The translations under genes were made by a program, and so were the position numbers. The notes below the pieces were generated by a model that saw only the letters and a program-made list of their open reading frames with translations, had not been told where the DNA came from and did no database searches. 64,000 nt of DNA from assembly GCA_003599145.1 (NCBI GenBank), contig QZIT01000005.1, forward strand, positions 253,961 through 317,960, written 5' to 3'. This document shows positions 2,941 to 63,895 of this stretch, one piece after another. Origin of the DNA: Candidatus Woesearchaeota archaeon (lineage in GTDB: Archaea; Nanobdellota; Nanobdellia; Woesearchaeales; UBA9642). Each line of letters opens with the position of its first letter. Position 1 is the stretch's first letter.

Positions 2941-3315
2941 TTAATAGCACATAATAGAACATTTATAGTTATAAAACTCGCCCTGCACTTTTTGATACTC
3001 TTCAGCTTTTTTATCTCCAACAGCAGGATGCCTTAAAGAAAGCGTTCCATCAGGCGCAATGGCAAATGCAGTGTAAACACTATCTGGTTCTGAACTGCCT
3101 GCATAGGGTATGGCATTATAGAACAATTGAGAACCATCAGGTTTTATTGCTTCTAGAGTTCTATAATTCAGAGAGTCAGAGCGTGCAGTATGCACTTCAA
3201 CCACATCCTCTCCTACTTTTCCACGAAAATAATCAGGGAAGAAGTGTTTTTCACCACAGGACAAAAAGGTTAGAGCTACTATGGCTGTTAATGTTGTAAA
3301 CGTTTTTCTTAACAT
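2941..3315 (-). CDS. Putative secreted lipoprotein
   Basis: A 124-residue protein of no family I recognise. It starts with a signal peptide MLRKTFTTLTAIVALTF ending in a lipobox LSC at residues 18-20, so the mature protein probably begins at Cys20, lipid-anchored on the outer face of the membrane. The mature part is short and polar with beta-type alternation and ends with two cysteines (YKCSIMCY). It stands alone between tRNA-Tyr and the tRNA-Asp unit. The style resembles the lipoprotein at 58873, but no clear homology is visible. Confidence 0.7.
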   Translation of the reverse strand: MLRKTFTTLTAIVALTFLSCGEKHFFPDYFRGKVGEDVVEVHTARSDSLNYRTLEAIKPDGSQLFYNAIPYAGSSEPDSVYTAFAIAPDGTLSLRHPAVGDKKAEEYQKVQGEFYNYKCSIMCY

Positions 3316-52913: not shown

Positions 52914-53039
52914 ATGAAGTACAAAATAAGCATCTCTGTTGATGAAAAAACCTTATTAAAAATACGAAAAGGCATGTTAGAAGGCAGATTTAGAAATAAA
53001 TCCCATGCTTTTGAATACGCTGTTGAGGTGATGGAATGA
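52914..53039 (+). CDS. 41-residue ribbon-helix-helix (CopG-like) protein
   Basis: Reads MKYKISISVDEKTLLKIRKG followed by MLEGRFRNKSHAFEYAVEVM: a basic strand SISVDEKTLLKI, a helix, and the turn GRFRNKSHAFEYAV characteristic of ribbon-helix-helix DNA-binding proteins. Its stop overlaps the kinase start as ATGA, so the two are translated together. Pairing a mini-repressor with a kinase gene is unusual. Confidence 0.75.
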   Translation: MKYKISISVDEKTLLKIRKGMLEGRFRNKSHAFEYAVEVME

Positions 53040-54550
53040 ACCCTGCAGTACGTCCAAAACTTTCTCAGTACACTATTGAAGATTTTATAGGAAGAGGAAG
53101 CTGGGGACAAGTATGGAAAGCAAGAAGAATTACAGACGGCTCTACATGGGCATTGAAAGTTTTAGATCTTACCCCTGAAGCAGAAAAACAATTAGCCCAC
53201 AGAGGTTTGACTGTTCAGGCAGTGTGGGATAAAGAAAGTTTGGGAGGATATACTACCACGCACACTCATTTAACACACGGATTTATTGACATAGATAATG
53301 GCATGCAGTTCCTTGCAGAAGAATATGTTAACCGATTTTTATCAGATTATTTAAGAGGACACAACATTCCTGATCTTAATGAAACCGTAAAAATTGCAGA
53401 GGGCATTGTTTCAGGATTAAGCATATTGCATAAAAAAGTAAAAAGAGTCCATGGCGATTTAAAGCCGGATAATATAGGCTATACTCATGATGGCATCGTA
53501 AAGCTTACAGATTTTGGAACATCAACTATCGCAAGATACATTGACAATACCGTAAGAGACAATATGGGCTGCTTATACACAAGAGCACCTGAATGTTTTA
53601 GAGAAGGAAGCCATCCTACTGAACGTTCAGATGTCTGGTCATTTGGCTCATTGCTGTATAGATTATTTACAGGAAAATATATTTTTCAGGATGAATTAGA
53701 TAACGCAAAAGACCCTGCAAGATTTTATGAGCAGATGGATGCAGATATAGCACAGAAAGTTATTAAACAAAAATTGCAGCATGTTCCTAAAAAATTCAGA
53801 AATCTTCTGAAAAGATCATTGCAGTACCAATCCCATGAACGATATGCTGACGCTGAAGCATTGCAAACAGATTTAGACAAAGTCATTGAAATGCTTGACA
53901 GCAAAAAAGCAGCATGGAACTATACAAAAAGAGCATTACTTCCAACTATGGGAGCATTGGCGTTCGGTACATTAATGTATCTGGCAGCAACTCATGAGCC
54001 TTCAAAAATTGAAATGCCAAAAGTAGAACTGGTAGGTCCTGCATCTGACATCACTACAGAGCCAGCATTAGAATTTACACGAGAGTATATCGAACTTCCA
54101 AGGGCAGTTCCGCAAGAAGACAATGGAACTGCAAGAATAGTTACGAATAATAAATATGTTGCATATCTTATGAATACCTATATGAAAACAGCAAATCAAT
54201 TAGATATTCAAGAAATAGTTACAGAAGAACAGTTCAAGCTGTATATGGCGTATACAACTCCTGAAGAAAGACAGATGACCGTGCGAGATTATCATCCTGT
54301 TGCAAAAGCCATAGAAGTTGCCCTTAATAAAAGCCAGATGGTTGATGGAAAAATAGATTTAGAGGATTTCTGCACGATTGCAAGAGTTGGAGAAAACCAG
54401 TGGAATCAAACAAGAAAAGCAGCAAACAGCTTTGAGTTTGGCAATTATATCAACGCACAGCGTTTTGCAGGCAACGGCAACTTTAATTATCCAATCATTC
54501 CAGAAAAAGAACAGGAATTTATCAAAACATGGCTTGCTCACATAGAGTAA
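53036..54550 (+). CDS. Membrane-anchored Hanks-type Ser/Thr protein kinase
   Basis: 504 residues. Kinase domain at residues 12-290: glycine loop GRGSWGQV (19-26), Lys41 in ALKV, HGDLKPDN with catalytic Asp141 and Asn146, DFG at 159-161, APE at 184-186. A membrane helix lies near 303-322, then an external part of about 180 residues without PASTA repeats (helical, with TPEERQMTVRDYHPVAKAIEVALNKS). HGD replaces the common HRD, so activation-loop control may differ. Cotranscribed with the 41-residue RHH protein. Its end overlaps the AbrB-PhoU gene by 13 nt. Confidence 0.93.
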   Translation: MNPAVRPKLSQYTIEDFIGRGSWGQVWKARRITDGSTWALKVLDLTPEAEKQLAHRGLTVQAVWDKESLGGYTTTHTHLTHGFIDIDNGMQFLAEEYVNRFLSDYLRGHNIPDLNETVKIAEGIVSGLSILHKKVKRVHGDLKPDNIGYTHDGIVKLTDFGTSTIARYIDNTVRDNMGCLYTRAPECFREGSHPTERSDVWSFGSLLYRLFTGKYIFQDELDNAKDPARFYEQMDADIAQKVIKQKLQHVPKKFRNLLKRSLQYQSHERYADAEALQTDLDKVIEMLDSKKAAWNYTKRALLPTMGALAFGTLMYLAATHEPSKIEMPKVELVGPASDITTEPALEFTREYIELPRAVPQEDNGTARIVTNNKYVAYLMNTYMKTANQLDIQEIVTEEQFKLYMAYTTPEERQMTVRDYHPVAKAIEVALNKSQMVDGKIDLEDFCTIARVGENQWNQTRKAANSFEFGNYINAQRFAGNGNFNYPIIPEKEQEFIKTWLAHIE

Positions 54551-55428
54551 GTTTCTGATAGCAATATTGCCAGTACAGGACTGGTTCCTATCTGTATTAA
54601 CCTGAATAATTCTCGTATATGGGAAATGATAATGGCATCTTTGCCTTTCGTTAAAGCTTTTCTGCACGCTTCCTGATAGCTATTTTTTTGGCTGTTGATT
54701 TTATGGATATATGCCATTTTTTTAGTGTAAAAGGCATTGTAGAATAAATCAAAGTAAATCTCTAGGTCTTTCAATAGTTGAATAATCTCTGGATTTTTCT
54801 TGTAGTTTTTTTCTGCATACTGGTAGAGATAAAAATAAGCATGCTGGATATGCATTAAAAACGTCAGTAATTCCCAGTTTAACATCTGCTGTTTTGCAAG
54901 CTCTTTTTGAATGCTTCTCCTGCAGAATAAAACATATCTATCTGACTGCAGGGTTAATTCTTCTATTTGCTTGAAATTTTTTAAACCAGTTTGAAGGTCA
55001 TTGATGGTTATTTTTTGCGTTTCCTTGATGATGAAAAAAGTCCTTTTCAATAAAACGTCATATTTGTTTTCCTCTGGCTCTGAAATGCTTTCCAGCGTTA
55101 TTTTCTGGTTTTCTTTTTCGGTTATTTCAAATCCTAAGAGCAAGGGCAATTTTATTTGATTTTCCGTTATCAACCCTTTTAAAATGATAGTATCAAATCC
55201 TGCTCGGTAGGCATGGGTAAGAATGTTTTTGAGGTCGTGCTTGTTTTCTTCTGTTATTTCTATGGTTATTTGCTTTTTTTCTTTTAATGTTGCATCGATG
55301 ATGAGCCCAGTCTGGCTTTCTTCAATGGAAATTTCATCGCCTGCCTTTAACCCTTTGCGGTCAATCCATTTTTTAGGCAGATAGATGGTAAATCCAGACA
55401 TGCCCTGCTTGATAAGCTTGCGTTTCAT
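54538..55428 (-). CDS. AbrB-PhoU fusion regulator
   Basis: 296 residues from the ATG at 55428. SpoVT-AbrB domain at the N-terminus (RKLIKQGMSGFTIYLPKKWIDRKGLKAGDEISIEE), then a helical PhoU-like domain with two long helix pairs. Archaeal proteins of this layout are thought to regulate phosphate or stress genes. Here it lies tail-to-tail with the kinase and diverges from the long unknown operon at 55.5 kb, so it could control that operon (inference). Confidence 0.85.
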   Translation of the reverse strand: MKRKLIKQGMSGFTIYLPKKWIDRKGLKAGDEISIEESQTGLIIDATLKEKKQITIEITEENKHDLKNILTHAYRAGFDTIILKGLITENQIKLPLLLGFEITEKENQKITLESISEPEENKYDVLLKRTFFIIKETQKITINDLQTGLKNFKQIEELTLQSDRYVLFCRRSIQKELAKQQMLNWELLTFLMHIQHAYFYLYQYAEKNYKKNPEIIQLLKDLEIYFDLFYNAFYTKKMAYIHKINSQKNSYQEACRKALTKGKDAIIISHIRELFRLIQIGTSPVLAILLSETYSM

Positions 55429-55552
55429 GCTCAAAAGAAGCTTTATTTATATATAAATATTTCCATTTTAATATGAATAATATCATTCATATCAGTTAAA
55501 TATTAATGCTCAATAGTAACCACCAGATAGTAATAATAATAAAAAAGGTGAA

Positions 55553-56077
55553 ATGAACATGATGCCAAATCCACTAAAAGTAATGGTTATCGCTGCAGTA
55601 AGCATGGCTGCATATATAGGAATAGGTCAAATTCGCATCAATGAGTACAAAACTACCCACAATACCAGCGCCATAACATATCTAGAAAATTGTTATGACT
55701 TTCCTCCGTCCAGAGAGCTCAACAGAATGACTATTCAAGGTACAAACGGATTATTTGAGTTTACAGATGAGAAAGATGAAACCAACATCAGCTTCGCTCC
55801 AGGAATTGATTTTTTAGATGACAAACTGGAAAGAGTTATGGCAAAAAACATTAACGGCACGGATAGCTTTGTCTATACCTCATCTGAAATTGATTCTACA
55901 GCATATGGACAGGAAGTTGCAAAAATATTCGAGAATGCAAATAAGACGTATAACACACTGAGATTAAAAATAAGGTCAGAAAAACTTAGCGCACAAGAAG
56001 AAATCAGACAAGCAAATCTTCAATGTGCCCAAGTAAACAAAGCATACATGCAAAGTTTAGATTCATTAATGAGGTGA
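55553..56077 (+). CDS. Single-helix membrane protein, first gene of the unknown operon
   Basis: 174 residues; ATGs at 55553, 55559 and 55562 are candidates, with GGTGA at 55548 favouring the later ones. One membrane helix (residues about 9-25: KVMVIAAVSMAAYIGIGQI), then an outward-facing domain of about 145 residues: acidic beta-rich middle (GLFEFTDEKDETNISFAPGIDFLDD), NGTDS sequon, helical tail. No family recognised. Upstream are CAATAGTA and a TTAAATATTAAT-type box. Confidence 0.65.
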   Translation: MNMMPNPLKVMVIAAVSMAAYIGIGQIRINEYKTTHNTSAITYLENCYDFPPSRELNRMTIQGTNGLFEFTDEKDETNISFAPGIDFLDDKLERVMAKNINGTDSFVYTSSEIDSTAYGQEVAKIFENANKTYNTLRLKIRSEKLSAQEEIRQANLQCAQVNKAYMQSLDSLMR

Positions 56078-56081
56078 AAAC

Positions 56082-56894
56082 ATGCACGAAGATGTAAGAA
56101 TACCAACAACTATTGACGGAAGAATATTTCAAGATGAAAAAATGTACGTTGCACTGAGAAACTGTGAACGTGAACATCACCGTCCATTATTCATGACTGA
56201 AGTTGCAGAAGCACTATCAATGAGTCAAGAAGATTCACGACTCTGGAGACCAGGCATTACCACTCCGAGTGTTCAGGTAACAGGAAAAACAAATAGAGGC
56301 AATAACGTTGTTGTTTTTGCACATATTCCCAATTACTTTTCTAAACCTAAGAGCATTCAAAGAGCAATATCCAACGGGTTGGTTGATGGCGCAGGACAAT
56401 ATCCTCAATGTGAATTTGAATATCTTTTGAGCAAAGAAGATGGAAAAAATGTTTTTGTTGTTGATTACACTGTTTTAGTAGACGCATCGCAGAAAATGTA
56501 TGACTCATTCAATCTAGAAAAACACCCTATGGTTATTCCTTTTTTGGGAGCAGCAGCAGAACAGTATTTATCGAATGCCAGCAGTCTAAAAATGAGAATA
56601 ACATTCCAACAGGATTTACATGAAAAGCCATACGCTCGTTTGTTGCAAATCAGCACTGTTGAAGATGATATGGAAGTATTAACAGTTCATGAACTCAGTG
56701 CAGCACACCCTCTAGACGGAGCAGGAAGATTTCTAGCAAGAAAGCCAAGAAGTTTGACGCCTTTGGAAAGATTAGCAGGAAAAGGCACTGATGTTGGAAG
56801 AGGTTTGATTGTTCTGTATTCAGAAGCATTGGATGATGTTCAGTATCAAAAATTAACCTATAATCCCCCATTAATGAGATCAAGGAGGCAATAA
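56082..56894 (+). CDS. Unknown family A, copy 1
   Basis: 270 residues, no signal peptide or membrane helix. Shares with copies 2 (56897) and 3 (58145) an ordered set of motifs: RPLFMTEVAEA, VQVTGKTNRGNNVVVFAHIPN, DGKNVFVVDY, HPMVIPFLGAAAEQYL. This copy has an added C-terminal basic region (RFLARKPRSLTPLERLAGKG). Preceded by GAGGTGAAAAC. I do not recognise the family; a ligand- or carbohydrate-handling beta fold is only a guess. Confidence 0.7.
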   Translation: MHEDVRIPTTIDGRIFQDEKMYVALRNCEREHHRPLFMTEVAEALSMSQEDSRLWRPGITTPSVQVTGKTNRGNNVVVFAHIPNYFSKPKSIQRAISNGLVDGAGQYPQCEFEYLLSKEDGKNVFVVDYTVLVDASQKMYDSFNLEKHPMVIPFLGAAAEQYLSNASSLKMRITFQQDLHEKPYARLLQISTVEDDMEVLTVHELSAAHPLDGAGRFLARKPRSLTPLERLAGKGTDVGRGLIVLYSEALDDVQYQKLTYNPPLMRSRRQ

Positions 56895-56896
56895 AA

Positions 56897-57664
56897 ATGG
56901 AAACAACACAACTACCAATAAGTGCACCAAAAAAAATTGAAGCAATGGTGCTTGAAGACAATGTTGTCAATATGATTAAAAACATGGAACATTCTGGCTA
57001 CAGGCCATTGTTTATGCCTGAACTTGTTGACGCAAGGATCAGTACAGGAAGGAACAATCCTGTCTGGAAAGATGTAGCAACTGCAAGCATTAAAGTAACG
57101 GGAGAATCAAGACATGGCAATTACGTCGTTGTTTATGCCCACATGCCACATCCAATGCTCATTGCAGACCATGTAAGAAACGGGTATGATAATAACCAAT
57201 TCACTCAGAAGTTTGGAATACTCAATATGCCCACTGTTCTTTTTCAGCAACTGCTTGACAAAGAGGATGGAAAAAATGTTTTTGTGCTTGATGCAACTAC
57301 TGCTGAACAATCAGTTCCTGAAAAAGCAGATATGCCTGGAATAGGAACTATAGAATTAAAGGTTGAAGATGCAATCAAACATCCATTAGTTATTCCTTTT
57401 TTAGGCGGATGTGAACGAGCAGAAAAATACCTTGCAAAACATGCAAAAACTGCAGGAAGAAGAATTTCCCTTTACAACACACCTGATAGCAAGTATATGG
57501 GCAGTTTTCCTATTGTTCGTTTTCTTTCCAATGCCGCATGGCATACGGGAAGCTTCGATGACAACTGGTATAAGCCAAGCAACACGCATCTTTGGATAGG
57601 TGTTCCTAAAAGCTACAGCATAAAAGGAGATAACGGAAAGCTTGTTTTGCAACAGGGTGAATGA
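56897..57664 (+). CDS. Unknown family A, copy 2
   Basis: 255 residues, 2 nt after copy 1. Motifs: GYRPLFMPELVDARIS, IKVTGESRHGNYVVVYAHMPH, LLDKEDGKNVFVLDA, IKHPLVIPFLGGCERAEKYLAKHAKTAG. Closer to copy 3 than to copy 1. The middle part (NNQFTQKFGILNMPTVLFQQL) differs from the other two, which may set specificity. No exported features. Confidence 0.7.
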   Translation: METTQLPISAPKKIEAMVLEDNVVNMIKNMEHSGYRPLFMPELVDARISTGRNNPVWKDVATASIKVTGESRHGNYVVVYAHMPHPMLIADHVRNGYDNNQFTQKFGILNMPTVLFQQLLDKEDGKNVFVLDATTAEQSVPEKADMPGIGTIELKVEDAIKHPLVIPFLGGCERAEKYLAKHAKTAGRRISLYNTPDSKYMGSFPIVRFLSNAAWHTGSFDDNWYKPSNTHLWIGVPKSYSIKGDNGKLVLQQGE

Positions 57665-57666
57665 AC

Positions 57667-58143
57667 ATGTTACGAAACTTAGTTAACAAATCATTGGGAA
57701 GAACAAAAACAGTTGATGAAATTATTGTGTTTAACCAAGCAATTGAACTGCTCAGAGATAATGAAACAAGTGAACGGTATTACCAAGATGTGCATCATCA
57801 GCCATCAAATAAGACCAGAGGAAATTTAGCAAGTCAGAGTGTATTACGAAACAGAGATATTGTTGAAGACAGACAAATTCAACTATATGGCGTTGTCTTA
57901 GCAGAAATCATCGACGCATTCAAAGCAGTAGCATTTGATGTTGCAAGCAAAGGCGCAGCATACAACATGCCCAGATTTACGTTTGATGAAATAAGACACC
58001 GGTGCTATACTGGAGATGACGGAGAGCAGCATTACATCGATTATGTTTCAGGAAGGGCAAGAAAGCATCATAGAAATGGCAGTTACACAATCATTCCTGA
58101 AAAGACTTGCTCCATTGATTTTTTGGTGAGAAGAGGGAGATAA
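57667..58143 (+). CDS. Hypothetical protein between family A copies
   Basis: 158 residues from the ATG at 57667, chosen because GGGTGA directly abuts the earlier ATG at 57661 and leaves it too close. Helical first half (FNQAIELLRDNETSERYYQDVHH; LYGVVLAEIIDAFKAVAFDVASKG), then a basic strand-rich end with RHRCYTGDDGEQHYIDYVSGRARKHHRNGSYTII. No family recognised. Its placement inside the operon between copies 2 and 3 suggests a shared function. Confidence 0.65.
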   Translation: MLRNLVNKSLGRTKTVDEIIVFNQAIELLRDNETSERYYQDVHHQPSNKTRGNLASQSVLRNRDIVEDRQIQLYGVVLAEIIDAFKAVAFDVASKGAAYNMPRFTFDEIRHRCYTGDDGEQHYIDYVSGRARKHHRNGSYTIIPEKTCSIDFLVRRGR

Positions 58144-58144
58144 A

Positions 58145-58876
58145 ATGACTGATGTAAAAATACCCATGACTATTGAGGGAAAGTTATTTTATCATAGCAC
58201 TACTGAAGGCGCGTTGAGAAATATTCAGTCTGTGCAATACCGACCGTTGTTTATGCCTGAAATTATTGATGCAAGGATTGCTGCTGATGACACGAGTCCG
58301 TTGTGGATGAATGGACTTACCGCTATGAGTGTGAGTGTTACAGGAAAAACAAAAGGTGGCAAGGCAGTTGTTGTGTATGCTCACGTTCCTCATTATTTTA
58401 GCAATCCTGAAAATGTTGCGAACACTGTTAAGGCTGGTTTAACTAATGGTGCTGGACCTTATGATGCCGTTGATTTTCGAAGATTGTTGGATTTGCAGGA
58501 TGATAAAACCGTTTTTGTTGTCGATTATAGTACATTAAAGACTTCTGTTTCAGGCACTATCGAAGTAAGTGAAGCACTGAAACATCCGCAAGTTATTCCA
58601 TTTCTCGGAGGAAAAGAAAGAGCAGAAGCCTATTTGGAAAAACACGCAAAAGTTGTTGGAGACAAAATAGGAATCTTCCACACAGACCTTGCAAAAAAGC
58701 CACTCGGCAGCATGCTATTCGTCAATGACCGGTATGACAGTGGCTTCCTTGGTCATCTCGTTGAGATTGGTCTTAAGAACTATGGTCCTTTCGTTGGGGT
58801 ACCAGTAAGCACCGCAGACGCCGTGAAAAAAACAGGCTCTTTAGACAGCGCGCAGTTCTTAGGAGGCTCAAAATGA
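58145..58876 (+). CDS. Unknown family A, copy 3
   Basis: 243 residues. Motifs: YRPLFMPEIIDARIAADD, SVSVTGKTKGGKAVVVYAHVPHYF, LLDLQDDKTVFVVDY, LKHPQVIPFLGGKERAEAYLEKHAKVVG. Shares SNPENV...GLTNGAGPYDAVDF with copy 1 (SKPKSI...GLVDGAGQYPQCEF), so copies 1 and 3 are alike in this region while copy 2 is alike to 3 at the C-terminus. GGGAGATAAA ribosome-binding site. Overlaps the lipoprotein gene by 4 nt. Confidence 0.7.
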   Translation: MTDVKIPMTIEGKLFYHSTTEGALRNIQSVQYRPLFMPEIIDARIAADDTSPLWMNGLTAMSVSVTGKTKGGKAVVVYAHVPHYFSNPENVANTVKAGLTNGAGPYDAVDFRRLLDLQDDKTVFVVDYSTLKTSVSGTIEVSEALKHPQVIPFLGGKERAEAYLEKHAKVVGDKIGIFHTDLAKKPLGSMLFVNDRYDSGFLGHLVEIGLKNYGPFVGVPVSTADAVKKTGSLDSAQFLGGSK

Positions 58877-59307
58877 AAACACTAGCCGCGATTGTTTTGG
58901 CAGCAGCGATTACGGGCTGTACGAATGTTGAATATGATGGAAATTTGGTAAATCCTCAAACAGGAAAAAAAGAACATGTCTCATATGAAAAAACAAAAGC
59001 TGTAAATGTTAAGTTGGATGAAGATTTAACAATTACAAGAGACGACAGCACAAAAATAGTTTTTGACACTTATTGGATTGATGCTAACAAAGTAAGTGAA
59101 ATAGAAGTAACAACTCCACATACTAAATACACACTTGAGATGTGTGAATATCCTAAAGAAGAAAGGATCATCTTCCAGCAATCGCTCAATAATTATCGTG
59201 TATGGATAGAGCATGCAAAACAAGTACATGAAGACTCTGTGCGCAACGCAGAACGAGCGCGTGCAGATTCTATAAAAAATTTCTTCAGAGACGCATTACA
59301 AAGGTGA
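58873..59307 (+). CDS. Putative lipoprotein
   Basis: 144 residues. Signal peptide MKTLAAIVLAAAITGC with lipobox ITGC (Cys16). Mature part: beta-rich (NVKLDEDLTITRDDSTKIVFDTYWID) and a long charged helix at the end (HEDSVRNAERARADSIKNFFRDAL) that could form a coiled coil. Start secure: GGAGG seven nt before the ATG. Surface component of the operon. Confidence 0.75.
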   Translation: MKTLAAIVLAAAITGCTNVEYDGNLVNPQTGKKEHVSYEKTKAVNVKLDEDLTITRDDSTKIVFDTYWIDANKVSEIEVTTPHTKYTLEMCEYPKEERIIFQQSLNNYRVWIEHAKQVHEDSVRNAERARADSIKNFFRDALQR

Positions 59308-59312
59308 ACAAG

Positions 59313-60305
59313 ATGAAATCATTACTCATAGGAACACTAGTAACAGCGCTTGCAGCAACTGCAAACGCAGGAAACGTTCAAATAGAAACAAGAGCAGACT
59401 ATAAAGAAAAAATAGAAATGCAGAGAATACGAACAAAGGCAATTACAGACCATGTAACATTTACTTTAGATCAGAATTTTACTCAAGCAACAAAAAAAAA
59501 AGATGAATACAAAGCATGGCTTTCAGGAAAAGCAAAAAATACCTATGTAGGTTTTGTTATCCAAGGTGATTGCAATGTTGTTGATTCAATGGACCATAGA
59601 AGAACCGATATTGGTTTATTTGTTTCTCAGCCTGTAGGAAATACTGCCTATGAAGGTTTTATTGCAACCATTGTGAAAGATGGCAAAAAGCCGATGTTAT
59701 TTTATCAAACAGCAGTAAGAGCAAAAGCAGACATTGTAGGAACCATCGTGCAGGATAATAATATTCCTGTTACGTTGCACAATCTTGATGCAACGCTGTA
59801 TGCAACATGGAATAACAATCCTGCTATTGCAGGCTTGGGAGTTTTTCATAGTTTAGGAAATATGGAAAAAGTCTATGGCGGTTTAGGATACAATGACAGT
59901 ACCAATACAGGATTGGCTGTTTTTAATTATCAGCTTTCTGAAAAATGTCTTGAACTTGACGCAAGATTAGGACATGGCAATCCTTCTGGAATTGTTTCAA
60001 AAGCAACCATGAATTACTGGAATGAATTAAACGGTGTTGGTATAAGAAAAGTTGGCCAGCCATATACAAAATCATTTTTAATGGATGCAGATGCAACAGC
60101 TCGATTGTATCTTCTTGATGATAGCTATGAAGCAATGGTAGGAAAAAAGTTTGGAGATTTTAGAATAGGCATGGGCATTGCAGATGACCATATAGCAATG
60201 CATACAGCAACGTCTTTCAACATTGGCAAAGGAACGCTGTATGTTGAAGGGCGATTAAAAGAAAGTGAATCAAGAGTATATGTGCAATATCAGCAAGGAT
60301 GGTGA
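59313..60305 (+). CDS. Exported beta-rich protein
   Basis: 330 residues. Cleavable signal peptide MKSLLIGTLVTALAATANA, Ala-x-Ala ending at residue 19. The rest is built of short amphipathic strands in hairpin order (TDIGLFVSQPVGN, AGLGVFHSLGN, YGGLGYNDSTNTGLAVFNYQL, MDADATARLYLLDD, FRIGMGIADDHIAMHT, GTLYVEGRL, SRVYVQYQQGW) and it ends in Trp. The pattern is reminiscent of outer-membrane barrels, which archaea with one membrane do not need. A beta-solenoid or adhesin-like sheet is the alternative. GTG at 59304 rejected; ATG at 59313 follows GGTGA. Confidence 0.65.
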   Translation: MKSLLIGTLVTALAATANAGNVQIETRADYKEKIEMQRIRTKAITDHVTFTLDQNFTQATKKKDEYKAWLSGKAKNTYVGFVIQGDCNVVDSMDHRRTDIGLFVSQPVGNTAYEGFIATIVKDGKKPMLFYQTAVRAKADIVGTIVQDNNIPVTLHNLDATLYATWNNNPAIAGLGVFHSLGNMEKVYGGLGYNDSTNTGLAVFNYQLSEKCLELDARLGHGNPSGIVSKATMNYWNELNGVGIRKVGQPYTKSFLMDADATARLYLLDDSYEAMVGKKFGDFRIGMGIADDHIAMHTATSFNIGKGTLYVEGRLKESESRVYVQYQQGW

Positions 60306-60310
60306 TACTT

Positions 60311-60595
60311 ATGAGAATAATTGTTGATGAAATGGACCATGAACAAATGGCAGCAATGCAAGACTATATTAAACGCGATCTGAAAAGGCCCAGTTTTAAG
60401 CATAGCCAGTTTACTGCATACATATCTGCAATTGCAGGAGTTGAGGCTAGAAAATATGATGCAAGAAGAGACGAAGGAAGCAAGGACGCTGCGCAGATAT
60501 ACAAAGGCGTTGAAATAACCGTTGTTGAGGAAGAAATAGCTGATACATCGGGAAATTTAGACAAGCTTCTGGAAATTCTCTGGAAGAAAAAATGA
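60311..60595 (+). CDS. Small hypothetical protein
   Basis: 94 residues from the ATG at 60311, preceded by GGTGATACTT. Helix-rich N-terminus (DEMDHEQMAAMQDYIKRDLKRP), a strand (AQIYKGVEITVVEEEI) and a C-terminal helix with basic end LLEILWKKK. Size and layout are like small adaptor or antitoxin-like proteins, but no family is recognised. Overlaps the zinc-ribbon gene by 4 nt. Confidence 0.6.
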   Translation: MRIIVDEMDHEQMAAMQDYIKRDLKRPSFKHSQFTAYISAIAGVEARKYDARRDEGSKDAAQIYKGVEITVVEEEIADTSGNLDKLLEILWKKK

Positions 60596-60690
60596 ACTGC
60601 ACACTATGCAACTATCGATGGAAATCAAGAGTTGAACAGCCGAAAAGCTGTCCTCGATGCAAAAGAAGATTTGATTATTATGGAGGATAA
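60592..60690 (+). CDS. 32-residue zinc-ribbon protein
   Basis: Reads MNCTLCNYRWKSRVEQPKSC followed by PRCKRRFDYYGG. Two CxxC pairs, C-TL-C and C-PR-C, 14 residues apart, form one zinc ribbon; basic surface (WKSR, KRR) suggests nucleic acid or protein binding. The ATG overlaps the previous stop (ATGA). Its last codons (GGA GGA TAA) supply the ribosome-binding site of the next gene, which is strong evidence that it is translated in the operon. Confidence 0.75.
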   Translation: MNCTLCNYRWKSRVEQPKSCPRCKRRFDYYGG

Positions 60691-60691
60691 T

Positions 60692-61246
60692 ATGGCAGAC
60701 ATTACAAGAATACTGAGAGAGTTTGAAAAAGCCAGACAAGAAAAATGGCTCGGGGCAGCGTCATATGCCAGCCATCGAGAAGATCAAACTTCGTTGACAG
60801 AAGAAGATGTTCGATTATTGGAAAACAATGCACGGTTGGGATTTCATAGCCATGAACTGTTTACCTATCTTCGAGAAATTAAGCAACCGCGAATTGCAGT
60901 AAATTATACCCTTGCAAGGCCAAAAGCAATCATAATACCTAAAGAAGATGATTATAGCATGCTTCAACAATTATCGAAAGCAGGTGATTTATTGGCAAAT
61001 AAAATCGAAGTGTTTTTCGAAGTGTTCAAGCCTGTTTACGATGCAAGATCGAGAATATGCAAGTCGGGTATTATCAGAGAGTTAGTAACGAGAACCATGA
61101 GCTTTGACACATACAGGGCTTTGTATAACGGAGAAAGGCATTTGTTTTATGATAACCAAGGACCAGTATGCCTGCCCAACATTCCAACGCTGGATTACTG
61201 GATGCATTTAGAAACACAAACGGAGACAGAACATGAACGCAGATGA
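60692..61246 (+). CDS. Unknown family B, copy 1
   Basis: 184 residues from the ATG at 60692, set by GGAGG at 60682-60686; the longer frame overlaps the zinc-ribbon gene. Mostly helical. Shares with copies 2 and 3: LSKAGDLLANKI near the middle, R.LVTRTMSFDTYRALYNG, and the ending LETQTE. Distinct N-terminal half. Overlaps copy 2 by 14 nt. Confidence 0.68.
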   Translation: MADITRILREFEKARQEKWLGAASYASHREDQTSLTEEDVRLLENNARLGFHSHELFTYLREIKQPRIAVNYTLARPKAIIIPKEDDYSMLQQLSKAGDLLANKIEVFFEVFKPVYDARSRICKSGIIRELVTRTMSFDTYRALYNGERHLFYDNQGPVCLPNIPTLDYWMHLETQTETEHERR

Positions 61247-61682
61247 TTTGTTATATGAACTTGAACAAAAAGCAGAAGATAAAGCAGATTTTCTACGCCA
61301 TCGCAAACAGCAAAGACAATTAACTCCTGAACTGGATAGATTAATTGAGAACAATCCAGAAGTTTATGGATTATTTCTGAAGTTTGAGAAAGTCAAATAT
61401 GAAGTATTTCACGGACTTGCACAAAAAGACCCCTTAGCACAAAAAATTGTTCAGCTGGCAACTGAAGAAAATCTGCCAGATTACAGAACGAGAGACTCTG
61501 AGTATTTGGGAATTCTTCGAAAATTGGTAGGGAGGACTATGACGTTGCAGGAATATAGAAAACTCTTTGATGGCAAGCAACCTGCGTTTACTGCAGGAGA
61601 ACGTATGGATACTTATTTCTATGTTGCAGCAACTCCAAAATTAGCAGACCTCATTGACTTGAAAACGCAGGTGGAAAAATGA
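61233..61682 (+). CDS. Unknown family B, copy 2
   Basis: 149 residues, helical. Shared elements: HGLAQKDPLAQKIVQLA, LRKLVGRTMTLQEYRKLFDGK, TYFYVAATPKLADLIDLKTQVEK. The last residues QVEK are identical in copy 3. Overlaps copy 3 by 4 nt. No membrane or export signals. Confidence 0.68.
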   Translation: MNADDLLYELEQKAEDKADFLRHRKQQRQLTPELDRLIENNPEVYGLFLKFEKVKYEVFHGLAQKDPLAQKIVQLATEENLPDYRTRDSEYLGILRKLVGRTMTLQEYRKLFDGKQPAFTAGERMDTYFYVAATPKLADLIDLKTQVEK

Positions 61683-62209
61683 AAAACATAACTCCTGAAT
61701 ATATACTGCATAAATCAGAGCAGTTGTATGCAAAAGCAAGGCACATGCATAAAGTAGCATCTGCAATGACCTATCAGCATTCTATTTCAGACGAACAAAA
61801 CCGTATTGGTTTGCTTGCAGAAAGCGCCTTTGGAGAATCCGCAATTGACTGGATTAAAAATATCTACGACTCTCCTATGTTGGTAAGCTGCAAGAGAGCA
61901 TTGCGAAGCATGGCAAAAAGTGGAGACCCTTTGGCAAACGCAATAATCGCTTTGGAAACTGACGATACGCTGAAAGGCATGAGATTTTTTGACGGTATTG
62001 CCAGCTTGCTGCATCAAAAAACAGTTAACGACGGTAAAACAGCACAGATTATGTTTAAGCTTTTAAATAGAACCATGAAACAAGAAGAATATGCAGCATA
62101 TCTGAACGGCACTGCGTGCATTGGAGAATTTCTTGGTTATACCGTCTATGTGAAAGAAACCAAAGAACTGTCTGATGTTATGGATATGGAAACGCAGGTG
62201 GAAAAATGA
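61679..62209 (+). CDS. Unknown family B, copy 3
   Basis: 176 residues. Shared elements: RSMAKSGDPLANAIIALE, FKLLNRTMKQEEYAAYLNGTA, GYTVYVKETKELSDVMDMETQVEK. N-terminal helix pair is specific to this copy. Closest to copy 2 at the C-terminus. The ending motif L-x-D-x-x-x-(L/M)-(E/K)-T-Q-V-E-K could be a docking tail (inference). Confidence 0.68.
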   Translation: MKNITPEYILHKSEQLYAKARHMHKVASAMTYQHSISDEQNRIGLLAESAFGESAIDWIKNIYDSPMLVSCKRALRSMAKSGDPLANAIIALETDDTLKGMRFFDGIASLLHQKTVNDGKTAQIMFKLLNRTMKQEEYAAYLNGTACIGEFLGYTVYVKETKELSDVMDMETQVEK

Positions 62210-62231
62210 GCGATCTCTAACACTTAAAAAT

Positions 62232-62942
62232 ATGACAACCCACGGCTTTATCGGAACAGGAGTTATTGGAACAATGCTGATGAACAGGTTTAAAGGCAAA
62301 ACCATCATTTCATCAAACAAGCCAGAAACAAATCCTGAGGTGATTAAGCAGTCAGATATTGTTTATCTCTGCGTAAGGCCTCAGCATTTAGAAGATGTTT
62401 ATCAAGATTTACAGGGAAATCTAGAGGGAAAATTACTCGTAACAGCTATTGCTGCAGTGGAATGTGCTTCATATTATAAACAGCTAGGAGACATACCATT
62501 AATAAGAATAACGCCATCTCTAACAAATATTATTCACGGTTCAATCTTGGCGCATTCTGGAGTATTCGTCACTCTTGCAAATAGAGCACAAATGTACAAT
62601 CGTTTGGCAAGAATAGCAACCTTATATGAGGTTTCGGAAAAAGAAATGGACGCTTATGCACATCTTTCCAGTTGCTCTCCTGCAGTCATTGCTGCCTTTG
62701 TGAGAGAGTATATACGCTCAGTCAATGGCATTGACGAAAAGAAGGGAACAGACATCATGGTTGATGCTTTACTCAATACTGCATTGCTGTTAAAACAAGA
62801 CGGCTATAAAATTATAGATCAAGTATGCACGAGAGAAGGCATCAGCAGAGTCGGTGCTGATTTTGTAAGCACATTTCCAATGCAATCATTGTCAGATGCA
62901 CTGCATGAAAGAATGCAGTATGTAAAGGAGAGATTTGGATGA
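62232..62942 (+). CDS. Pyrroline-5-carboxylate reductase-like protein
   Basis: 236 residues from the ATG at 62232. Rossmann motif THGFIGTGVIGTMLM, SDIVYLCVRPQHLEDV, LVTAIAAVE, IPLIRITPSLTNIIHGSILAHSG (P5CR signature region RxMPN replaced by RITPS), and a helical dimer domain with VCTREGISRVGAD in place of the PGGTT motif. The missing motif suggests a different substrate from proline biosynthesis (ComER/ProC-like). It sits in the unknown operon with no other metabolic genes. Confidence 0.8.
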   Translation: MTTHGFIGTGVIGTMLMNRFKGKTIISSNKPETNPEVIKQSDIVYLCVRPQHLEDVYQDLQGNLEGKLLVTAIAAVECASYYKQLGDIPLIRITPSLTNIIHGSILAHSGVFVTLANRAQMYNRLARIATLYEVSEKEMDAYAHLSSCSPAVIAAFVREYIRSVNGIDEKKGTDIMVDALLNTALLLKQDGYKIIDQVCTREGISRVGADFVSTFPMQSLSDALHERMQYVKERFG

Positions 62943-63895
62943 ATCTTGAACGTTTGCTCATAGAAACAGGCATGGGATTTGTTTATGGGTATGCTGTTGG
63001 AAGAATGATTGATAGCTCTAGTGGATTTAGGAATGAAAAAGCATTAGCAGAAATTGATGCTGCATTGCAATTGGAAAAGCAAGATTTTTTAGGAAGATGG
63101 TCTGATAATAAAAAACATCTCGAGTCAAAACGTAAAAGTTATACGAGAGGTGATTTTTTGTTCCCTCCTTTCTATATACCGCCTTTGTTTGGCATAGCAG
63201 CATATGAGGTGGTCCAGTTTCATAATCATAAGTTTCTTAGCGCGGTAATAACTTCAGGAATTGCTACCATAGCAACCTATTTTGGAATAAAAACAGGAAA
63301 CTGGCATGGACGATGGAGTAGGCATAGAAGAGTTTTAGAAGAAAAAGACATAAAACAATTGGACACCTTTATCTATCGATGGCAAATTAGAACCATGAAT
63401 GACTGCTCTGAAGCAGAAATGCAAAAGGCGATGTATGAAATGCAAGAATGCGGTAAATTCCTTGTTGAAAAAAAGAAAAACCCTCAACTTGAAAAAGTCG
63501 TTGATGCAAGAATACTGGAAGGAATAGAATACGCTGCACTGTATACTTGTATTGAGCAGGCATTGGAAAGCAAAAGTGCCGTAAGCGTACTGCCTTTAAA
63601 CCAGCATTCCTATACAAATACTATCTTGCTTATTCCTGATGACAATGAATTGACTGTTTTGAATATACGTTCAACAGGAGTTGACAAAATACAGGATGAA
63701 ACCATGACTGCAACCATAGGACAGCATAGTGTAGAGCAAGAATTTCTTCCTTGGAAAAACGACATTCATGCACTGATAACTTATGCAAAAAAGGATGCAG
63801 CTGTTGTTTTGGTTACCGGAACTGCACCTTGGCATCAAAGATATATGATAGGGCTGAAGGATGCAATTCGGCAATATAAAAGCGAAGTGCTTTGA
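62939..63895 (+). CDS. Membrane-anchored hypothetical protein
   Basis: 318 residues; overlaps the ProC-like gene by 4 nt. A weak hydrophobic N-terminus, then a helical linker and two membrane helices near residues 76-92 and 98-116 (PPFYIPPLFGIAAYEVV; AVITSGIATIATYFGI). A soluble C-terminal domain of about 190 residues contains helices and then strands (TILLIPDDNELTVLNI; DAAVVLVTGTAPW). Last gene of the operon; no family recognised. Confidence 0.65.
   Translation: MNLERLLIETGMGFVYGYAVGRMIDSSSGFRNEKALAEIDAALQLEKQDFLGRWSDNKKHLESKRKSYTRGDFLFPPFYIPPLFGIAAYEVVQFHNHKFLSAVITSGIATIATYFGIKTGNWHGRWSRHRRVLEEKDIKQLDTFIYRWQIRTMNDCSEAEMQKAMYEMQECGKFLVEKKKNPQLEKVVDARILEGIEYAALYTCIEQALESKSAVSVLPLNQHSYTNTILLIPDDNELTVLNIRSTGVDKIQDETMTATIGQHSVEQEFLPWKNDIHALITYAKKDAAVVLVTGTAPWHQRYMIGLKDAIRQYKSEVL

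Follow-up and report, generated by a model that had tools for sequence, protein, structure and literature searches.

Layout of the operon

The DNA analysed here (the window) is a 64-kb stretch, bases 253961-317960 of contig C1, from a Candidatus Woesearchaeota genome that is 1.31 Mb long, 97.5% complete and assembled in 6 contigs, and its subject is an operon of 14 genes, all on the forward strand, at positions 55553-63895. An earlier note had described a packed operon of mostly unknown families, and a check of open reading frame (ORF) coordinates, frames and spacing confirmed that its genes overlap or lie within a few bases of each other, the 13 junctions measuring +4, +2, -4, +1, -4, -4, +5, -4, +1, -14, -4, +22 and -4 bp, with a 14-bp overlap and a 22-bp gap as the extremes. 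With respect to the raw ORF list, the starts of the small protein (60311), the zinc ribbon (60592-60690), B1 (60692) and the ProC-like gene (62232) were revised.

The first gene, op01 (55553-56077), encodes a 174-aa protein with an N-terminal membrane anchor, its transmembrane (TM) segment lying at about residues 7-30. It is followed by two members of a family that we call A, A1 (56082-56894) and A2 (56897-57664), by a hypothetical protein of 160 aa (57661-58143) and by the third member, A3 (58145-58876; 243 aa). Then come a 144-aa lipoprotein (58873-59307), identified by reading the sequence, with a lipobox read as TGC, a 333-aa exported protein with a signal peptide and a C-terminal W (59304-60305), a 94-aa small protein (60311-60595) and a 32-aa CxxC...CxxC zinc ribbon (60592-60690). 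A second family, B, provides B1 (60692-61246), B2 (61233-61682) and B3 (61679-62209), and the operon ends with a 236-aa ProC-like oxidoreductase (62232-62942) and with mem318, a 318-aa protein with N-terminal membrane segments (62939-63895). The starting point of the earlier note, one operon that combines triplets of cytoplasmic paralogues with membrane and exported proteins, was supported. The claim of GGTGA/GGAGG sites held in part: by eye, an exact motif precedes 8 of the 14 starts (the exported protein being counted from its second start, 59313), the weaker GGGAG, GGAGA or GGTGG precede 4, and no clear site was seen before the zinc ribbon or the ProC-like gene.

Searches against Pfam (13 of the 14 genes, with the zinc ribbon excluded) and against PHROGs, NCBIfam and PADLOC (from at least one of which A2, A3, the small protein, B1, B3, the ProC-like protein and the zinc ribbon were each missing) gave no convincing family for the operon genes tested, with the exception of the ProC-like protein; weak matches to WSS_VP, NAT_N and DUF7902 were judged to be due to chance. 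The oxidoreductase is called ProC-like only, because its P5CR_dimer and F420_oxidored domains exceed the Pfam cut-off but its TIGR00112 score (78.2 bits) misses the equivalog cut-off (196.75). The description of mostly unknown families was not supported for family A, as described below. Family B is a true paralogue triplet like family A, more divergent than the latter (29-35% versus 38-45% identity). Its profile found only chance-level matches in the PDB, and its structure model, built from three rows, failed (pLDDT 45). One weak homologue was found in each of 4 of the 351 other genomes of the order, with unrelated neighbours, and a one-sequence search of 98 relatives gave a single weak match, in G080, that contains an internal stop.

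Two further loci of the same genome were recorded apart from the operon. A bacterial-looking short lipoprotein at positions 2941-3315 of the window resembles the operon lipoprotein in style. Directly 3' of the operon, past the end of the window (L018:12981-13665), a TumE-like toxin gene (below cut-off) precedes that of an HVO_A0114-type winged-helix protein, and the two probably constitute a toxin-antitoxin pair.

Family A and the search for a diversity-generating retroelement

A 9-row profile of family A matched one solved structure strongly, PDB 5ioo (chain 5ioo_A; E 3.3e-88). An AlphaFold model of A3, which represented the triplet in the fold comparison, was obtained from 25 of the 29 alignment rows (L041, L047, L058 and L059 were dropped) with a pLDDT of 85.9, and superposed on 5ioo with a TM-score of 0.93 (by target) and an rmsd of 1.6; no other structure reached E 0.001 in the Foldseek search. 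By profile and model, family A is AvpA, the C-type-lectin (CLec) variable protein of archaeal diversity-generating retroelements (DGRs), which was described from a nanoarchaeal DGR as a variable protein with the CLec fold (Handa et al. 2016, PMC5006420). The window copies share with it the family, the CLec fold and the motifs GxxVVVYAH, HPxxxPFxG and RFxGV, and A3 appears to retain as GGGGTA the GV encoded by the initiation of mutagenic homing (IMH) sequence; they differ from it in that three copies stand in one operon amid lipoprotein, exported and membrane genes, that no reverse transcriptase (RT), template or hairpin was detected here and that A1 and A2 are devoid of the variable region (VR) signature. 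Since Table 3 of the same paper already lists AvpA-like proteins without DGR in Woesearchaeota, an avpA gene without an RT is no novelty by itself. The named relatives of family A belong to Woesearchaeota, Pacearchaeota and Nanoarchaeota bins.

We compared the triplet with 34 AvpA loci from the genome collection, eight of which (L052, L055, L056, L057, L063, L066, L068 and L070) were kept out of the alignments as fragments or odd frames. In DGR loci of relatives, a second copy of the 3' part of the gene lies near an RT and the changes sit on template adenines, with 6 of 6 substitutions at adenines in L021, 14 of 14 in L022, 17 of 18 in L027 and 13 of 15 in L030. An RT match was present in 8 of the 34 loci and direct repeats in 7, where the changes at adenines amounted to 15/17, 17/20, 13/14, 14/14, 8/16, 13/14 and 6/6; the 8/16 corresponds to the repeat of L058, and the counts are not all independent, L054 and L065 appearing to be identical with the contigs of L022 and L021 (same lengths and repeats). 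The other 26 loci showed no RT match in the fetched DNA, a figure that is not a count of orphans because many of them are cut by contig ends. As side observations on loci of relatives, the RT open frame of L022 (10744-11986) and of L027 (7621-8832) begins with the DGR template, read in frame, the L022 RT being split over two frames, and in three genomes a two-gene pair near avpA (L020:10737-11754, L021:10593-11609, L023:4504-5515) encodes proteins that by eye look winged-helix/nucleotidyltransferase-like and HEPN-like, possibly a toxin-antitoxin pair.

In the window genome no DGR reverse transcriptase or template was detectable. The Pfam profile RVT_1 found nothing over its cut-off genome-wide, and the single match below it was discounted as an RT, its open frame reading by eye like a methyltransferase. 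The RT of G003, a genome of the same family, had no match there either, and as a control the same query found 22 of the 98 relatives, among them three members of that family. There was no second copy of the A3 variable region. A template-pattern search that recovered exact templates in three of three control genomes (G003, G004 and G010) revealed no template in the window genome, only a chance-like match with two mismatches (G000:C1:110099), which was rejected as A-rich DNA lacking an AAY framework; the reversed control pattern gave 3 matches in this genome. RT-less partial DGRs are known from the DUSEL4 Nanoarchaeota, whose VR-bearing target genes likewise lack an adjoining RT and were read as fossils or remote targets (Paul et al. 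2015, PMC4372165). Unlike the present case, those genomes hold intact DGRs, and here the target is triplicated inside an operon.

The three copies are in different states. At its GV codons A3 carries GGGGTA, the variable-type sequence of several DGR-linked relatives, and this hexamer occurs once on the forward strand of the window (in A3) and four times on the reverse strand. The putative VR remnant of A3, at 58724-58801, ends with TTTCGTTGGGGTA (VR-type IMH) and is the peak of pyrimidine-ending codons in the gene (18 of 20, versus 56% overall). The A3 VR carries an insertion with respect to relatives, and no stem of at least 5 bp was found in the 70 nt 3' of its GGGGTA; of the 13 relatives examined, 11 have a hairpin after the VR, some of these hairpins being distant or AT-rich. 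Neither GGGGTA nor a region matching the A3 VR was found in A1, whose variable region appears decayed, or in A2, where it appears replaced. In the AvpA tree (without L059, which has a masked stretch), A1-A3 group with the DGR-linked AvpA of G003 (SH-aLRT 92, branch not starred), no starred branch contains the window copies, and a label test applied to their rows fell short of significance (174 of 500 shuffles). The terminal branches measure 0.65 for A3, 1.78 for A1 and 2.26 for A2, the last two being long. On these sequences, A1 and A2 have lost the VR signature and evolve fast, a single origin of the three copies is likely though not proven, and A1-A3 are DGR targets that have been orphaned and probably domesticated.

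The kinase/AbrB-PhoU frame and its intergenic DNA

The AbrB-PhoU gene and the surface kinase that the earlier note had placed next to the operon do adjoin it, and their coupling proved to be the best-conserved part of the locus. A 41-aa ribbon-helix-helix (RHH)-like protein (52914-53039, forward strand) overlaps the start of the gene of a 504-aa membrane-anchored Ser/Thr kinase (53036-54550, forward; Pkinase E 1.1e-32), which consists of a kinase domain, one TM segment and an outside tail, the last two as read from the sequence. The 3' end of the kinase gene overlaps by 13 bp that of the AbrB-PhoU regulator (54538-55434, reverse), which is divergent from the operon. Its MazE/AbrB domain scores slightly under the Pfam cut-off, and PhoU is the name given in the earlier note, which no Pfam match backs. 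Bacterial-type membrane Ser/Thr kinases, PASTA-type and similar, have the same arrangement of kinase, one TM segment and extracellular tail; the window kinase differs in that its gene tail-overlaps a regulator tied to a divergent operon. PADLOC matches to mad6 and PD-T4-6 reflected the kinase domain only.

The search with mem318, which matched 2 of the 351 other genomes of the order as a single sequence and 8 as a profile, led to the same frame elsewhere. In G162, a genome from another family, the genes run RHH, kinase-like membrane protein, AbrB-PhoU (reverse), REC-like protein, 258-aa protein, zinc ribbon, exported protein and mem318 homologue; its RHH-like protein (68% identity over 38 aa to its window counterpart) matches Pfam RHH_1 below the cut-off, and its zinc ribbon is 74% identical over 27 aa to that of the window. 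AbrB-PhoU and a divergent operon with a mem318 homologue recur in G164 and G063, and in G003 the RHH, the kinase (38% over 339 aa) and AbrB-PhoU (43%) recur next to a different divergent operon. A second set lies just downstream in the window genome itself, beyond the window (L018:13891-18918 and L019:1-1784), where a second AbrB-PhoU gene overlaps by 4 bp that of a membrane protein of 972 aa that matches an APH-type kinase, and where the divergent operon encodes an exported protein, two paralogues and a protein with two TM segments, followed by DNA polymerase B. The frame of kinase, AbrB-PhoU and divergent operon thus recurs downstream and in four other genomes, with a mem318 homologue in three of those operons. 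Homology between sets was scored by z-scores; a z of 5.1 between the ProC-like and the 258-aa G162 protein was disregarded, 98 such comparisons having been made. The kinase-type and AbrB-PhoU genes overlap tail to tail in 6 of 6 sets (13, 4, 30, 21, 32 and 6 bp), which were found through mem318 or by adjoining the window and are not a random sample, the partner in G063 being a fragment.

As side observations, a protein of 731 aa that shows matches of the sigma-70 region 2 and region 4 types, unusual for an archaeon and possibly a contamination, adjoins the G063 mem318 homologue (L108:7108-9303), and mem318-family proteins cluster with E1-like proteins at L097:9612-16099 (ThiF by Pfam) and L110:9750-17808 (by eye), joined at the latter by three paralogues from another unknown family.

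The six intergenic regions of these sets were compared by local alignment, taking the window set as G000_1 and the second set of the same genome as G000_2. None of 300 dinucleotide shuffles exceeded the alignments G000_1-G162, G000_2-G063 and G000_2-G164. A TATA-like element (55450-55470), about 20 nt off the AbrB-PhoU start, is common to the regions in pairwise alignments. A class I footprint around ATCAGTTAnnTATTAAT (55485-55510, core 55491-55507) is common to the window and G162 (score 56, versus a maximum of 44 in the shuffles), ATCAGTTAnnTATTAAT having a single occurrence in the window and a single one in L098, both at this place; class II (TATATA[CG]TTTAA) takes this position in G000_2, G063 and G164. 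Inverted repeats were no better than in shuffled regions (25, 122, 18, 16 and 33 of 200) except in G003 (0 of 200), and therefore no palindromic operator is claimed.

The identity of the AbrB domain is 57-61% within an operator class and 20-50% between classes, a threshold seen post hoc among six regulators, and the rest of the protein does not track the class. The N-terminal and remaining identities are 59 and 25% for G000_1-G162, 61 and 25% for G000_2-G164, 57 and 31% for G000_2-G063 and 57 and 25% for G164-G063, versus 33 and 47% for G000_1-G003 and 41 and 56% for G162-G164. Because the two classes follow the AbrB domain rather than the rest of the regulator, AbrB-PhoU probably acts at the conserved intergenic DNA, as predicted from these comparisons.

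Origin and possible role of the operon

We give an even chance to the reading that the operon delivers the output of a signal-regulated module in DPANN archaea of the Woesearchaeota type, with recruited, triplicated and now fixed AvpA copies. The kinase would sense an outside signal through its extracellular tail and act on AbrB-PhoU, which would bind the common intergenic region and switch the operon, and the latter would yield membrane, lipid-anchored, exported and ligand-binding proteins for the cell surface or a partner cell, that is, for a signal-controlled surface interaction. The lineage would have recruited into this frame, and triplicated, an AvpA-type CLec protein that was once a variable DGR target: the target would have been copied within the family, the retroelement lost and the copies fixed. 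As no retroelement can now be detected, A1-A3 are probably fixed binders; A3 is the least changed of them, A1 and A2 may have diverged for new ligands or structural roles, and family B is a second local paralogue expansion.

Several observations weigh against this proposal, which is built on sequence and models. The family A proteins have neither TM segments nor visible signal peptides, so that their surface display would need some other route. Among the 8 non-self matches of the mem318 profile, the cassette was in the same operon in 3, nearby in 1 and absent from the fetched DNA in 4 (no AbrB-PhoU in that of G286, G120, G273 and G204). The G162 kinase-like protein has no Pfam match and no significant direct alignment to the window kinase, the link being made via G164, and the kinase of G063, a fragment cut by the end of its contig, matches weakly (E 0.01). 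The exported proteins of the sets compared have no detectable homology to each other, the G164-G063 intergenic pair has a short common motif in an alignment that is not significant (54 of 300), and the recurrence of the frame may partly reflect how common AbrB-PhoU genes are.

The genes might instead share a transcript and no common function, as a coincidental packing in a streamlined genome where lineage-specific genes form long co-directional runs, which we hold unlikely. By the earlier note, a set conserved nowhere as a unit would refute its candidate system, and the full 14-gene set occurs nowhere else among the loci examined; the homologues of its members are scattered: tblastn searches of the loci of AvpA relatives located no other operon member near any of them, op01 had no homologue among the loci searched and the exported protein none in the 98 relatives, and family B and mem318 homologues stand in other contexts or in a reduced version. 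Against mere packing, the frame, the zinc ribbon and mem318 recur together in another family (G162), and the intergenic control region is conserved.

That A3 is a live target diversified from a distance, its RT and template lying in the missing ~2.5% of the genome or lost in assembly, is decidedly improbable. The GGGGTA and the codon run of A3 were retained, and the many RT-less loci of relatives would suit such a target, but neither RT nor template was found in a 97.5% complete, 6-contig genome, the hairpin is missing 3' of the VR and the VR carries an insertion. The assembled surface apparatus or contact-dependent machine of the earlier note appears more doubtful still: it would fit the lipoprotein, the exported protein and the two membrane proteins of the locus, together with the extracellular tail of the kinase, but the Pfam searches of 13 of the 14 genes revealed no secretion ATPase or other motor, pilin or pore homologue, 9 of the 14 had no PADLOC match and no structural subunit was recognised; no evidence for it was found in these searches. 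A viral or mobile island, suggested by the toxin-antitoxin-like pair just downstream and the unusual gene content, is highly improbable, because the operon matches the rest of the window in GC and no homologue of AvpA, B, the exported protein, mem318 or the 160-aa protein was found in the viral contig collection.

A more specific form of the signal-regulated module is put forward tentatively, at somewhat lower confidence than the module itself. In a modular control system, a kinase with an extracellular tail and AbrB-PhoU, with a swappable AbrB domain and a matching operator, would drive a divergent operon of surface and binding proteins that is rapidly re-stocked from local paralogue expansions, including here three receptors domesticated from the hypervariable protein of a retroelement after loss of the mutagenic machinery. 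No account of the operon or of the kinase/AbrB-PhoU cassette was found in the accessible portions of the open-access literature, and the DGR survey of Paul et al. 2017 may hold one. The recurring cassette and its predicted operator make the regulator, the DNA site and the target operon testable without culturing the archaeon, and the triplet offers a testable case of the fate of DGR-made binding proteins once diversification ends. If the proposal is true, it would be a prokaryotic parallel to the fixing of useful antibodies in the germ line.

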